A DNA stretch of 64,000 bases from Hymenobacter sp. CRA2 (GTDB lineage Bacteria; Bacteroidota; Bacteroidia; Cytophagales; Hymenobacteraceae): assembly GCF_002007105.1 (NCBI RefSeq), contig NZ_MVBC01000004.1, forward strand, positions 186,001 to 250,000, read 5' to 3'. Each line of letters begins with the position of its first letter. Within the stretch, counting starts at the first letter, position 1. Below the pieces are notes generated by a model, which was given only the letters and a program-made list of their open reading frames with translations, was not told the origin of the DNA and searched no databases. A program made the translations under genes and the position numbers. Shown piece by piece: positions 4,560-61,550 of the stretch.

Positions 4560-4870
4560 GGCTGGTATGAAAGGAGAACCTACTGCTAGACAGCAAAACC
4601 AGCCATTGGGTTACGCTGGCCGCGGCTTAGCTGGTCAGTCACAGCCGCTGTGGCAGGGCGCGGCTAGGCCGAAGTGCCCTTGGCCGCGGCCCCAACCTGC
4701 GGCCATCAGCCTGTGGATTCGGTGAAGGCGGGGCGTCCGCTTAAGGCCTATCAACTAGGGTTTTGCCGAGTCACGATGCAAGCGGAGTAAGTCGTCAATT
4801 ATCGTCCCGGGCTAAGTCTCCCGACGTTTACCGGAAATTAAATACTCTGATATTCAATAGTATAATGATT
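4560..4870. other. Non-coding gap with nothing recognised in its first 310 bp
   Basis: The interval between the divergent SDR gene and the four-gene cassette. I see no conserved frame, RNA gene or repeat here. The remaining part of the gap (4871-4965) holds the palindrome and promoter described separately. Composition shifts from GC-rich to AT-rich after about 4840, as expected for the promoter side. Confidence 0.6.
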
Positions 4871-4912
4871 ATGTATCACAAGTTTCAATAATTATTGAAA
4901 CTTGTGATACAT
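4871..4912. promoter_or_regulatory. Perfect 42-bp palindrome, probable operator of the downstream cassette
   Basis: Two 21-bp arms meet with no loop (left arm begins ATGTATCACAAGTTTCAATA) and every base is matched; symmetry stops at 4870/4913. It covers the -33 box and spacer of the promoter at 4883-4915 and ends inside the -7 box, so a bound dimer or pair of dimers should block RNA polymerase. The second cassette gene encodes a GbsR/MarR-type winged-helix protein, the obvious candidate ligand. That link is inference. Confidence 0.8.
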
Positions 4913-4915
4913 TTG
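4883..4915 (+). promoter_or_regulatory. Bacteroidota-type promoter of the cassette
   Basis: TTTC at 4883-4886, a 21-bp spacer, and TACATTTG at 4908-4915, matching the -7 consensus TAnnTTTG exactly. Transcription would start near 4920, leaving about 45 nt before the ATG at 4966. The promoter is embedded in the palindrome. Confidence 0.7.
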
Positions 4916-4965
4916 AAGCGAACAACGGGTAAGCACATTCTTTCATCTGCAAAGCTTCACCAGCT

Positions 4966-5901
4966 ATGGGCCGTACGCGCATTGTTTTGGCCGGGGGAAC
5001 GGGGTTTCTGGGCCAATGTCTGATTAAGTACTACCGCCAGCCCGACGTCGATATCGTGGTGCTGGCGCGCGAGCCGCTGCCGCCTTACGCCAACGTGAGC
5101 TACGTGGGCTGGGACGGGCGCACGGTGGGGGAGTGGGCCGCTGAGCTGGAAGGCGCCGACGTACTCATCAACCTAGCTGGGCGCACCGTGGATTGCCGCT
5201 ACAATACGGCCAACCGTCGTGAAATCATTGCCAGCCGGGTGGAAAGCACCCGGGCCCTGGGCGCCGCCGTGGCGGCCTGCCGCCGCCCGCCGCGCCTATG
5301 GCTGAACGCGTCCACGGCTACCATCTACGAGCACACCGACGCGGACCGGCCCGCCAACACCGAGGCCGACGGCGTCATCGGGCGGGGCTTTTCGGTGGAA
5401 GTGGCCCGGGTCTGGGAAGAGGCGTTCTGGAGCTGCGTGGCGCCCCAGACGCGGCGCATCGCCCTGCGCACGGCTATTGTGCTCGGCGCCGACGGCGGCG
5501 CGTTTCCCACGCTGACGCAGCTGGCTAAGTGGGGCCTGTGCACGCCCCAGGGCTCGGGCGAGCAGTGGATCAGCTGGATTCACGAGCGGGACTTCTGCCG
5601 CGCCGTCGATTTTTTGCGCCGGCACCCCGAAGCCAGCGGCACCTTCAACGTGTGTGCCCCTAATCCGCTGCCCAACCGCGACTTCAACGCCCTGCTGGCC
5701 GAGGAGCTGCGGCCCTTGGTGCGCCTGCCCCAGCCCGAGTGGCTGCTGGAAGTGGGCGCGCTGATGCTGCAAACCGAGACCGAGCTTATCCTGAAAAGCC
5801 GCAAGGTGTACCCGCAGCGCCTGTTGGAATGGGGCTTCGACTTTCAATTTCCCACCTGCGCGGCGGCTCTCGCCGACCTTCTACGTACAGTAGACGCGTA
5901 A
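4966..5901 (+). CDS. TIGR01777-family NAD(P)-binding epimerase-like protein
   Basis: A 311-residue extended SDR. The N-terminal GGTGFLGQCL is the Rossmann glycine motif. The middle has LINLAGRTVDCRY and an SR(x)ESTR block followed by WLNASTATIY, typical of the TIGR01777 (YfcH/SulA-like) group. A C-terminal DUF1731-like segment (EWLLEVGALMLQTETELILKSR) completes the family length. Members are predicted nucleotide-sugar epimerases or oxidoreductases but their substrates are largely unknown. It is first in a run of four plus-strand genes with gaps of at most 34 bp, so co-transcription is likely. Confidence 0.9.
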   Translation: MGRTRIVLAGGTGFLGQCLIKYYRQPDVDIVVLAREPLPPYANVSYVGWDGRTVGEWAAELEGADVLINLAGRTVDCRYNTANRREIIASRVESTRALGAAVAACRRPPRLWLNASTATIYEHTDADRPANTEADGVIGRGFSVEVARVWEEAFWSCVAPQTRRIALRTAIVLGADGGAFPTLTQLAKWGLCTPQGSGEQWISWIHERDFCRAVDFLRRHPEASGTFNVCAPNPLPNRDFNALLAEELRPLVRLPQPEWLLEVGALMLQTETELILKSRKVYPQRLLEWGFDFQFPTCAAALADLLRTVDA

Positions 5902-5935
5902 CTTTCGCGTTCCGCCGACCTTTTCCTCCCGACCC

Positions 5936-6478
5936 TTGACCGAGCAACCCGACCTCACGCCCACGCCGCCGACTCCACTGGAGCAAGCCAAAACGCAGTT
6001 TATTCAGCTGTGGGGTGCTTCCGCGGCCAACTGGGGCATCAACCGTACCATGGCCCAGATGCACGCCCTGCTGCTGGTGTCGCCCGAGCCGCTGAGCACC
6101 GAGGACCTGATGACGCAGCTGCAGATTTCGCGCGGCAATGCCAGCATGACGGTGCGCGACCTGATCGACTGGGGCTTGGTGTACAAGGAGTTGCGGGCGG
6201 GGGAGCGGCGCGAGTTCTACGTGGCCGAAAAAGACATGCTGCAGGTCACGCGCTGCATCATCCGGGAGCGGAAGCGCCGCGAACTGGACGCCATGAAGCG
6301 CAGCCTCGATCAGCTTGCCACCCTGCCCGGCGACGAAAACGACCCGAATTACCGCGAGTTTCACCGCACCCTCACCGACATCCAGCAGATAGCCGACGGC
6401 GCCGACCGGGTGTTGGGCGGGCTGATGCGCGCCGAGCGCAACTGGTTCCTCGACAAATTCCTGCGGCTGTTCATGTAG
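5936..6478 (+). CDS. GbsR/MarR-family transcriptional regulator
   Basis: A 180-residue winged-helix regulator. The HTH lies around residues 60-90 (LSTEDLMTQLQISRGNASMTVRDLIDWGL) with a wing near RAGERREFYVAEKDML. The long helical C-terminus is typical of GbsR-like proteins that dimerise. The start is a TTG at 5936, because the first in-frame ATG (6049) would remove the first helix. It lies between an epimerase-like gene and a membrane-SRPBCC gene. Its likely role is autoregulation through the 42-bp palindrome at 4871-4912, inferred from location only. Confidence 0.87.
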   Translation: MTEQPDLTPTPPTPLEQAKTQFIQLWGASAANWGINRTMAQMHALLLVSPEPLSTEDLMTQLQISRGNASMTVRDLIDWGLVYKELRAGERREFYVAEKDMLQVTRCIIRERKRRELDAMKRSLDQLATLPGDENDPNYREFHRTLTDIQQIADGADRVLGGLMRAERNWFLDKFLRLFM

Positions 6479-6511
6479 AGCAGCTATTCCCTCACTTCCT
6501 GGCCTGGTTTT

Positions 6512-7618
6512 ATGGAAACCGACGAGCCGCGGCTGCCCGAGCAGCCCAGCGGGCAGCTCCCTGCATCCCATTTTCCCGCCTCCCTGACGCCGCCGGAGGC
6601 GCCCGGCGACTCCCAGCTGCCACCGGAAGCGGCCGGCCCGGCGCGGTCCTGGCTGACGGGCACGGTGTGGGGCTGCGCCCTGCTGGCGGTGGGCGGCGGC
6701 GCCGTGCTCATGGTACTGCTCACGGCCCTGTCGACCAACGGCTTCCGGCAGTACGGCTTCATGGTGTTCGTCTCGGCGCCGTTTCTCTGCGGGCTGGTCA
6801 CCAACATCCTGTTTGTGTGGCTCAACCCCGAGCGGCCTACCCGCAACGGCGCCGTTGCCGGGGCGGTGGTCACGCTGCTTACGGTGCAAACGGCTCTGGC
6901 CCTGATGGTAGCCTCGGCGCTGGAGGGCATGATTTGCGTGTTGATGGCCGCGCCCCTGGCTTTGCTGGCCGCCTGGGCGGGCGCCTTAGTGGGCGCCGCG
7001 GGGCACCGGGCCGGGCTCGAACGGCACCGCGTGCCGGTCTTGTCGCTGCTGGTGCTGCTGTACCCGGTGGGGCAGCTGGTAGAGATGCAGCACAGCGGGC
7101 CCCCGAAGCCGCACCGCGTCAGCACCCGGCTGCGCGTGCGGGCCACACCCGAGCAGGTGTGGCGGGTACTGATTGGGCCCGTGCAGTACCCCACGGCGGT
7201 GGGGCCGTTCTTCCGAGCTGGGGTGGCCTACCCCCTCAGCACGGCTGTTCAGCTGGATAGTGCCGGGCGCCGCACGCTGACGTGCGCGTATTCGCAGGGG
7301 CGGGCCCACTTGCCTATCACGGGGTGGCAGCCGGGGCGGGAGCTGGCCTTTCAGATTCCGAACACGCCGGCGCCGATGCGGGAGTTGAGCCCGTACCCCC
7401 GGATTCACGCGCCGCACCTGCACGGCTACTTCAGCGTCGACCGCGGCACCTTCCGCCTGCTGCCGCAGCCCGACGGCAGCACCGTGCTCGAAGCCACCAC
7501 GGTGTACCGCCACAGCATCGGCCCGCGCGCTTACTGGCAGCTGTGGAGCGACTACCTGCTCGACGACATGCACCAGCGCGTGCTCACCGCCCTCAAAACC
7601 CAAGCTGAACATGAGTAG
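6512..7618 (+). CDS. Membrane protein with C-terminal SRPBCC (START-like) domain
   Basis: 368 residues in two parts. After a Pro-rich cytoplasmic start, about five hydrophobic segments lie between residues ~48 and ~190. From residue ~205 on there is a soluble domain with the SRPBCC/polyketide-cyclase pattern: THRLRVRATPEQVWRVL-like first strand and helix, LSxxVQLDSAGRRTL, and a long C-terminal helix LDDMHQRVLTAL. SRPBCC domains bind hydrophobic ligands, so the protein may hold or pass on a lipophilic substrate at the membrane. Its last 8 bases overlap the next gene. The fusion of membrane helices to SRPBCC is uncommon. Confidence 0.78.
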   Translation: METDEPRLPEQPSGQLPASHFPASLTPPEAPGDSQLPPEAAGPARSWLTGTVWGCALLAVGGGAVLMVLLTALSTNGFRQYGFMVFVSAPFLCGLVTNILFVWLNPERPTRNGAVAGAVVTLLTVQTALALMVASALEGMICVLMAAPLALLAAWAGALVGAAGHRAGLERHRVPVLSLLVLLYPVGQLVEMQHSGPPKPHRVSTRLRVRATPEQVWRVLIGPVQYPTAVGPFFRAGVAYPLSTAVQLDSAGRRTLTCAYSQGRAHLPITGWQPGRELAFQIPNTPAPMRELSPYPRIHAPHLHGYFSVDRGTFRLLPQPDGSTVLEATTVYRHSIGPRAYWQLWSDYLLDDMHQRVLTALKTQAEHE

Positions 7619-8435
7619 CCGCGTACTGGAGCGGCCGCGCCAGGCGCGCCGCCGCACCGCCCACGACATTGTCCCCACGGCCGAGCTGTTCGAAACCGGC
7701 TTTGTGCGCAACCTCTTCAATCAGCTGGCCCCGAATTACCACTGGCACGAGCAAATGGCCTGCGGGCTGACCAACCGCTGGCGCCGCGAAGCTGTGGACC
7801 TGCTGCCGGCCCTACCGCCGGCCAGCGTCGTTATCGACCTGATGAGCGGCGGGGGTGAAATGTGGCCTGCTCTGCGCCAGCGCCTTGGCCCTGCGGCGCA
7901 GGTGCACGCCGTGGATTTTGCGCCAGCCATGCTCGCCCAAGCCCGCGCCCGGCAGCAACAGGCCGCGCAGTACGCCCGCACCACCCTGCACCACGCCGAT
8001 GCCCTGACTTGCCCGCTGCCCGACGAGGCCGCCGATGCGCTGGTGTGCGGCTTTGGGCTAAAAACGCTGGCTGCCACCGATTTTGAGCCGTTGGCGCGCG
8101 AAACGCGGCGGCTGTTGCGTCCCGGCGGCAGCTTCGTGCTGCTGGAGCTGACGCTGCCGCGGCACGGCTGGCGGCGGGCTGCCTTCATGCGCTACCTGCG
8201 CCTGGTACTGCCGCTGATAGCGTGGCTGAGCCGGGGCCGCGCCGCGCTGCACCGCTACCTGCCGTTTTACGCTCATTCTTTTGCCAACCTCGACGCCGTG
8301 GAAGGTGCCTTTCACGTGGCGGGCTTCGAACAGGTGCGACAGGTGCCGCTGCTGTTGGGCTGCGCCACGGCGTTGGTAGGGCGGAAGCCGGAAGAGCTTG
8401 TTGGGCAAGGCTTAGACTTCGGCGTGAGCGAATGA
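7611..8435 (+). CDS. Class I SAM-dependent methyltransferase, UbiE/COQ5-like
   Basis: 274 residues with methyltransferase motif I as VIDLMSGGGEMWPAL (usual DxGxGxG shifted to DLMSGGG) and the acidic residue of motif II in VHAVDFAPAMLAQA. FGLKTLAATDF and LRPGGSFVLLELTLP follow, and a C-terminal helical lid shows the UbiE/menaquinone-methylase pattern. Early NLFNQLAPNYHWHEQMACGL also matches that group. The start overlaps the SRPBCC gene by 8 bp, so translation is probably coupled. It is unlikely to be the housekeeping menG, since no quinone genes surround it. A small lipophilic acceptor is a reasonable guess. Confidence 0.85.
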   Translation: MSSRVLERPRQARRRTAHDIVPTAELFETGFVRNLFNQLAPNYHWHEQMACGLTNRWRREAVDLLPALPPASVVIDLMSGGGEMWPALRQRLGPAAQVHAVDFAPAMLAQARARQQQAAQYARTTLHHADALTCPLPDEAADALVCGFGLKTLAATDFEPLARETRRLLRPGGSFVLLELTLPRHGWRRAAFMRYLRLVLPLIAWLSRGRAALHRYLPFYAHSFANLDAVEGAFHVAGFEQVRQVPLLLGCATALVGRKPEELVGQGLDFGVSE

Positions 8436-8507
8436 TCCTTAGGATGTAGAAAAGCGCAGTTCCCTCAGGTTCAGGAGCTTGAATGGTTGGTGCCGGAGGC
8501 AACTCAA

Positions 8508-8672
8508 TCAGCGCCGGTTCACGGGTTTGCTCCGCGAGAATATGGCGGCAGTTGGCAGCGTACCTGGCTGCTCGCGGTGCAGGCCGGTGGTGTCCGTCAG
8601 GGCGTGCAGGAAGGCCATGAGGTCCTGCTTGTCGCGGGCTGTGAGGGTGAGCTTATCGAATGGCAGGGTTAA
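8508..8672 (-). pseudogene. 3' remnant of a cytochrome-c-peroxidase-like gene
   Basis: The minus strand encodes 54 residues ending at a TGA (8508-8510). LPFDKLTLTARDKQDLMAFL followed by HALTD resembles the extreme C-terminus of di-haem cytochrome c peroxidases, where LT..EK.DL.AFL.ALT is conserved. There is no start codon and no haem motif. Coding similarity stops abruptly near 8672, exactly where a plus-strand gene remnant begins. The full-length family is over 300 residues, so more than 80% is missing. Confidence 0.65.
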
Positions 8673-9060
8673 CGGCTACAGCATCTACTGCCGCGTGTAC
8701 CGCGAGTACTGGGACTGGGTGCAGAAGCGCAACGCCGAGCGCTACCAGAACACCGTGCAGCACGGCAAAAACTACGACGCCAAGAACATGCTGCACGTCT
8801 TTCGACTCCTGCAGATGGCCGAGGAAATTGCCCGCGAAGGCGCGTTGCGCGTGCGCCGCCCCAACCGGGAGTTTCTGCTGCAAATCCGCCGCGGCGAGTT
8901 CGAATACGCCGATCTGGTAGCGCAAGCCGAGGAGCAGGTGGCCCGCGTCGACGCCGCCTTCGCCGCCAGCCACCTGCCCGGTGAGCCCGACCGCGCCGCC
9001 GTCGAGCAGCTGCTCATCGACACGCGGCAGCGCTTCTACGCCGAACGCAGCAAGGGCTGA
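8671..9060 (+). pseudogene. 3' remnant of a nucleotidyltransferase (RlaP/PF10127-like) gene
   Basis: 129 codons beginning NGYSIYCRVYREYWDWV and running through HGKNYDAKNMLHVFRLLQMA to RRPNREFLLQIRRGEFEY. This is the helical C-terminal half of predicted pol-beta-type nucleotidyltransferases of the RlaP/YcgL-like group. The catalytic N-terminal half (GSxxxG, DxD) is absent. The frame stays open upstream to 8479, but that part reads the antisense of the peroxidase fragment and is not nucleotidyltransferase-like. A protein could in theory start in the open part, but it would be catalytically dead. Confidence 0.7.
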
Positions 9061-27762: not shown

Positions 27763-27813
27763 GCACTGCGGCCGGCGCAGCGTCGATAGTCGACGCTGCG
27801 CCGGCCGCAGTGC
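27763..27813. repeat. Perfect 24-bp hairpin with 3-nt loop
   Basis: Arms 27763-27786 (starts GCACTGCGGCCGGCGCAGCG) and 27790-27813 are exact complements around TAG. It begins 15 bp past the stop of the nuclease gene (minus strand). It has no T-run on either side, so it differs from the ordinary terminators in this window. It may end transcription, stabilise the mRNA 3' end or be a REP-like element. Confidence 0.8.
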
Positions 27814-34399: not shown

Positions 34400-34420
34400 T
34401 AAGTCTGTTTCGCAACCCAT

Positions 34421-34456
34421 AAAAAAGCCCAGCCGGTGTACCGGCTGGGCTTTTTT
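34421..34456. terminator. Bidirectional terminator
   Basis: AAAAAAGCCCAGCCGG (34421-34436) and CCGGCTGGGCTTTTTT (34441-34456) pair perfectly around a four-base loop, serving the POT gene (plus) and the membrane protein gene (minus). Confidence 0.9.
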
Positions 34457-34472
34457 ATGGGCTTCAGGCTCC

Positions 34473-61493: not shown

Positions 61494-61550
61494 CGCCCCA
61501 ACGCCAAGGGCCCGTCAGCACAGCGCTGGCGGGCCCTTGGCGTTGGGGCG
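61494..61550. repeat. Long hairpin with 26-bp arms between convergent genes
   Basis: The left arm 61494-61519 (starts CGCCCCAACGCCAAGGGCCC) pairs with 61525-61550 with one G:T position; the loop is 5 nt. It begins 6 bp past the HTH stop and ends 14 bp before the mtaB stop. There is no T-run, as in the hairpin at 27763-27813. Probably ends or stabilises both transcripts. Confidence 0.75.

Follow-up and report, generated by a model that had tools for sequence, protein, structure and literature searches.

A perfect 42-bp palindrome ahead of a four-gene cassette in Hymenobacter sp. CRA2 is very probably the operator of a GbsR-type regulator

The closest described systems are the regulators of the GbsR family (GbsR, OpcR and OpuAR of Bacillus; MJ223, 1KU9), which the regulator studied here resembles by its 1KU9 match (phmmer, 7e-14). 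PMC7396694 describes A/T-rich inverted-repeat operators in this family, an OpcR site that overlaps the -35 region, and a B. subtilis GbsR site whose half-sites are 4 bp apart and lie downstream of the start site. In comparison with the latter, the site described here has an N8 spacer, is located inside the promoter and, in one lineage, reaches a length of 42 bp. PMC6207618 reports no consistent gene context for the GbsR-type genes of Bacteroidetes. Regarding palindromes as such, copying of one arm onto the other was described to make an E. coli quasipalindrome more perfect (PMC7202029). Template switching can also yield multi-base compensatory changes, and it has been proposed for RNA stems and for hairpin maintenance (PMC8794818). 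The present case differs from both in that it concerns a promoter-operator palindrome and comparative data alone. Three strings taken from the core and arms were not found, as unbroken strings, in the main texts of the literature searched.

The window, i.e. the whole stretch of 64,000 nucleotides that was analysed, belongs to contig NZ_MVBC01000004.1 of Hymenobacter sp. CRA2. A perfect 42-bp palindrome was found at 4871-4912 (ATGTATCACAAGTTTCAATAA/TTATTGAAACTTGTGATACAT). Its arms (4871-4891 and 4892-4912) are 21 nt each and 100% complementary, with loop 0 and mismatch 0, in agreement with the preliminary description. Shuffled sequences gave far shorter loopless arms, of 9 at most when the 406-bp intergenic region was dinucleotide-shuffled 1000 times and of 12 at most in 50 shuffles of the whole window. 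No second copy of the 42-bp palindrome was detected in the genome at up to 3 mismatches. The features of the locus are the following.

4871..4912, no strand: 42-bp perfect palindrome, also upstream of orthologous cassettes
4871..4882, no strand: left outer arm ATGTATCACAAG, mirroring the right one; deviates at 2 positions or fewer in 26/29 orthologous sites
4883..4900, no strand: core operator TTTCAATAATTATTGAAA (TTTCA-N8-TGAAA), putative GbsR/MarR dimer site, in 29/29 orthologous sites and 35/70 distant loci
4883..4886, plus strand: candidate weak -33 element TTTC inside the core, 21-nt spacer, read from the sequence
4901..4912, no strand: right outer arm CTTGTGATACAT, 5-nt overlap with the -7 box
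4908..4915, plus strand: -7 promoter box TACATTTG (Bacteroidota TANNTTTG); TANNTTTG lies 7 nt past the core in 28/29 orthologous sites
4966..5901, plus strand: TIGR01777-family NAD-dependent epimerase/oxidoreductase with DUF1731 (240.5 bits, cut-off 207.35)
5936..6478, plus strand: GbsR/MarR-type regulator, putative autorepressor, TTG start as listed (PF12802 MarR_2 and 1KU9 matches)
6512..7618, plus strand: third cassette protein, no family assigned in Pfam and NCBIfam searches
7611..8435, plus strand: UbiE-like methyltransferase, by profile matches

The second gene of the cassette had been taken for a GbsR/MarR-type regulator, and this assignment was supported by profile and structure matches. 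The protein 5936-6478 scored 36.1 bits against PF12802 MarR_2, a winged helix-turn-helix model with a cut-off of 27, and its best solved relative was MJ223 (1ku9_A, phmmer E 7.1e-14), which serves as structural template for the GbsR family. Against the CudC choline-regulator equivalog NF047500 it reached 48.9 bits, well under the cut-off of 218; by this model it is a relative and not a choline regulator. The third protein (6512..7618) had no match in Pfam or NCBIfam; judging by eye, it may have membrane segments and an SRPBCC-like end. A light-response or osmotic-stress role of the cassette was considered and not adopted. In the loci of some relatives, genes for DCC1-like and DUF2071 proteins were found as neighbours.

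The promoter was evaluated with TANNTTTG and TTG, which we take to be the -7 motif and the -33 box of Bacteroidota, respectively. In 4560-4965 a single exact TANNTTTG was present on both strands together, corresponding to the -7 box at 4908-4915. No TTG-N17-23-TANNTTTG was found in the same region. The palindrome had been described as spanning the -33 box, the spacer and part of the -7 box; the overlap with the -7 box (TACATTTG, 4908-4915) is clear, while the -33 element is weaker, as TTG is absent and TTTC is the best fit. Similarly, the claim that this is the only promoter of 4966-8435 holds for the sole exact TANNTTTG within 4560-4965, that is, for the intergenic region and this motif. A sigma-70-type consensus scan of 4560-8700 gave one site (0.4 expected), located on the minus strand at 4888-4859, with its first hexamer within the left arm of the palindrome.

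The palindrome is likely to be the autoregulatory operator of the GbsR/MarR-type protein 5936-6478, and very probably the operator of a previously uncharacterised GbsR subgroup. Judging from its position relative to TACATTTG and the cassette, the site overlaps the promoter of what would be the regulator's own transcription unit. From the sequence comparison we infer that a homodimer of the regulator would bind the central TTTCA-N8-TGAAA. The core takes in the candidate -33 element as well as most of the spacer, and its end lies 7 nt before TACATTTG. In this position the dimer would block RNA polymerase from the operon 4966-8435, the repressor's own gene included, and a ligand or stress would release the repressor. 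The right outer arm bridges the core and the -7 box and is mirrored by the left one. That the regulator acts on its own operon here, as proposed in the preliminary description, is supported by comparison, since the core tracks the regulator and precedes the regulator gene in many other Bacteroidota.

Conservation was first evident within the family. A 40-mer of the palindrome, searched at up to 3 mismatches, matched in 23 of 204 family genomes with one copy each, and the reversed 40-mer gave zero matches in the same 204 genomes. The regulator was found in 91 of them (E ≤ 1e-15): 28 close orthologs with at least 66% identity (type A) and 63 distant ones with at most 53% (type B), the boundary being read off the match list. 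The palindrome at this threshold was present in 23 of the 28 genomes with a close ortholog and in 0 of the 176 without one. Diverged versions were observed in the five further type A genomes. In G126 the letters differ and the palindrome is still perfect, and G119 combines one symmetric change with two broken positions close to the centre. In G028, G115 and G100 the core is still there and the left arm is gone; G100 additionally lacks TANNTTTG.

Together with Hymenobacter gummosus (L007), the 28 type A loci provided 29 orthologous sites. Fourteen of these are the same as in the window, 18 are perfect palindromes and 11 have broken pairs; in some genomes symmetry extends beyond 21 bp, with arms of 22-23 bp. 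In the comparison proposed in the preliminary description, the palindrome was therefore not absent upstream of the orthologous cassettes: the core TTTCA-N8-TGAAA precedes the epimerase gene in 29/29, and the left outer arm shows no more than 2 differences in 26/29. The epimerase gene starts approximately 52-73 bp 3' of the palindrome end in all 29 cassettes, and conservation falls off beyond the palindrome and the -7 box TTTG.

Downstream of the palindrome, an alignment of 23 type A loci (e.g. L169-L176) revealed a small hairpin in the leader, of the form CCGG-loop-CCGG and with variants such as CTGG/CCAG. This alignment covers loci outside the window's genus, with G100 and the five loci of the window's genus left out. 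RNAalifold predicted the CCGG helix alone, and weakly (-4.7).

The core was also found beyond this lineage. Out of 72 non-Hymenobacter loci 70 were used, the other two having less than 150 bp upstream. In 35 of these 70 distant Bacteroidota loci the exact core was located no more than 150 bp ahead of the marR match, compared with a mean of 0.14 and a maximum of 2 in 100 rounds of shuffling. With one mismatch allowed the count was 43/70, versus a shuffled mean of 2.56. When spacers of 3-14 were compared, N8 occurred in 35 loci and the remaining spacers gave one match (spacer 13). No core was found within 150 bp of the marR match in 27/70 loci with one mismatch allowed, a number that includes at least one locus (L017) whose core straddles the edge of the 150-bp stretch. 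In many coreless loci marR follows gcvT. Among 3456 other 150-bp stretches of the distant loci the exact core occurred 14 times, some of these being second sites just past marR.

Regarding gene order, in L015-L082, many of them from Saprospiraceae, the regulator gene is often found behind gcvT and a HEAT/cyclophilin-type gene and not with the epimerase cassette. The core operator is present in some of these loci and missing in many. In a Flavobacteriales locus (L061:4517-4558), a core-centred imperfect palindrome with 21-bp arms, 3 mismatches and other, A/T-rich letters was observed just past marR.

For type B, 19 of the 63 loci were sampled, picked for spread. The core precedes the marR match by about 60 bp in 18 of the 19 fetched loci, the one without an exact core being L151. 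A second core was located 502-538 bp past the start of the marR match, i.e. beyond the end of marR, in 17 loci. The outer arms of the window were not present around the type B cores (18 loci). An exact TTG-N18/19-TANNTTTG promoter, with the TTG of the core as its -33 box, is present in 12 of these 18. In the window's lineage TANNTTTG lies 7 nt from the core in 28/29 sites, the exception being G100, versus 15-17 nt in 10 of 36 core-bearing distant loci where such a box was found, which places the core deeper in the promoter in the window's lineage. In L145-L163 (type B) the -7 box was observed 3-4 nt ahead of the regulator start codon in 12 of the 18 core-bearing loci, suggesting a nearly leaderless mRNA.

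The extent of the regulon was evaluated in the same way. In the genome of the window, no site besides 4883-4900 was found for the core at up to 2 mismatches. CTTTCAATAATTATTGAAAG was then scanned at up to 3 mismatches in 12 genomes, 10 of type B and 2 without a marR match. In 8 of the 10 type B genomes matches at up to 2 mismatches were obtained, all of them at the marR locus; G034 and G099 have 3-mismatch matches at that locus. Two 3-mismatch matches lie away from it, one each in G136 and G161, and the two genomes without a marR match have zero. The confinement of the matches at up to 2 mismatches to the marR locus suggests a local autoregulatory operator. Neither the own genome nor, with up to 2 mismatches allowed, the 10 type B genomes gave evidence of a wider regulon. 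TTTCA-N8-TGAAA would represent a concrete testable operator for a regulator subgroup spread across Bacteroidota.

On comparative grounds, the 42-bp length is a lineage-specific elaboration of this common core. The changes of the outer pairs 1-12 were placed by parsimony on the regulator tree for all 29 sites, giving 26 left versus 11 right changes. For six right-arm changes, in five lineages, the left arm carries the complementary change as well. They concern pair 2 in G119, pair 9 in both G056 and G109, pairs 11 and 12 in G126, and pair 12 in G062. Regarding pair 9, the neighbours of G056 in the tree (G074 and G060) and those of G109 (G025 and G037) all keep the window's pair, and G056 and G109 sit on separate supported branches. 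The double change at pair 9 therefore arose twice, or moved between G056 and G109. In a simple simulation, with equally many changes scattered over random tips and tree shape ignored, 0.42-0.66 matched changes were expected and P(≥5) was 1e-5 to 1.4e-4.

Shuffling of letters was carried out on 15 rows (14 distinct), consisting of one row per distinct site and one copy of the window's. Doubly changed cells amounted to 5, compared with a shuffled mean of 1.5 (1 of 500 shuffles as high), and pairs with such cells to 4, compared with 1.4 (11 of 500). No excess was observed for further pair types, one of five measures (10 versus a shuffled mean of 8.9; 110 of 500 as high). Sliding one arm by 1-3 columns reduced the paired cells from 92% to 29-43%.

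Some of the changes are not matched. Leaving aside the five lineages with matched changes, changes restricted to the left outer arm occurred in five lineages (G028, G122, G026, G037 and L007) and to the right in one (G045), and two (G100 and G115) changed on both sides in an unmatched manner. This represents a tilt towards a freer left arm, in a small sample, as would be expected from an additional promoter role of the right arm. Close to the centre, pair 18 changes frequently and never symmetrically. Such unmatched centre changes would fit copying that starts past the hairpin tip, with numbers too small for a test.

The matched changes were compared with the regulator sequences, using the putative helix and wing stretches of the fold. 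In G109, G062 and G126 the helix stretch ISRGNASMTVRELLDWGL and the wing stretch RPGERRE are the same as in relatives with the window's palindrome. G056 carries an E to D change in the wing stretch and G119 a D to G change at the end of the helix stretch, so that specificity may be altered in these two. In three of the five lineages, the matched arm changes thus came with an unchanged helix and wing.

The reading that we tentatively prefer is that template switching between the arms during replication maintains the near-perfect mirror, to which some additional binding may contribute. It fits the matched double changes, and their occurrence in 3/5 lineages without helix or wing change, better than additive binding of two dimers. 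Counted against it are the 11/29 sites with broken pairs, the asymmetry of pair 18 and the unexceptional pair types, and upkeep of the symmetry by selection is a possible alternative. A broader form of the proposal, held with slightly more reserve, is that template switching repeatedly copies the promoter-side arm to the other side. The operator arms would then evolve in concert, the symmetry would come from mutation as much as from selection for dimer binding, and such long "operators" would overstate the protein footprint. The palindrome may serve as a natural test of whether perfect operator symmetry derives from protein contacts or from copying mutation.

The preliminary description had read the 42 bp as two GbsR/MarR dimers, or a dimer of dimers, filling the whole palindrome. 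This is possible but rather unlikely, and it is not favoured over template switching. The arms can be read as GTATCACAA-GTTTCAATA-AT-TATTGAAAC-TTGTGATAC, four similar half-sites, with GTATCACAA and GTTTCAATA the same at 6/9 positions by eye, and the left outer arm is kept in 26/29 sites even though no -7 box was found there. However, the 9-bp repeat spacing is off the helical turn, and the left arm was lost with the core kept in 3/29. The window's outer arms are missing from the type B cores (18/19 fetched loci) and from the palindromes listed for the 72 distant loci; the longest core-centred arms listed there are 14 bp and perfect (L056), or 21 bp with 3 mismatches and other letters (L061). 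Additive binding also does not favour the matched double changes seen with an unchanged helix and wing in 3/5 lineages: when a homodimer binds additively, there is no reason for a half-site change to be followed by its mirror, and copying of an arm provides one. The two-dimer claim was therefore not borne out as stated.

A function of the hairpin itself, as RNA hairpin, terminator or DNA cruciform, appears improbable. The single DNA strand of the palindrome folds very stably (-20.1 kcal/mol, z -8.2), and the paired arm changes resemble stem covariation. Nevertheless, the core is kept in its letters and not in pairing alone, and relatives have it without the long arms. As the palindrome stops within the -7 box, it would probably lie outside the operon's own transcript, and the terminator prediction called none at 4871-4912.

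Marginally less probable still is that a second transcription factor occupies the outer arms, with the GbsR/MarR dimer on the core. The outer arms, as a lineage-specific addition to a common core, would suit such a factor. Against it, the half-site TGAAACTTGTGATACA had 12 matches in the own genome (up to 3 mismatches, two of them being the palindrome) versus 15 for the reversed control, and among the 204 family genomes the palindrome occurred only alongside the regulator. A chance palindrome or mobile-element remnant has a negligible probability, with no evidence found in its favour: shuffled arms were never longer than 12, the core at the orthologous position in 29/29 rules out chance, and the single copy in each of 23 genomes rules out a mobile or repeated element.

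Elsewhere in the window, downstream of the cassette, 8479-9060 seems to be what is left of the C-terminal part of an RlaP-like nucleotidyltransferase; a stretch of 124 residues is 78% identical to the end of a 357-aa protein (L010:1617-2687). Further long inverted repeats, three in number and with arm lengths of 22-26 bp, were observed at 27763-27813, 34416-34461 and 61494-61550, the one at 34416-34461 being terminator-like.
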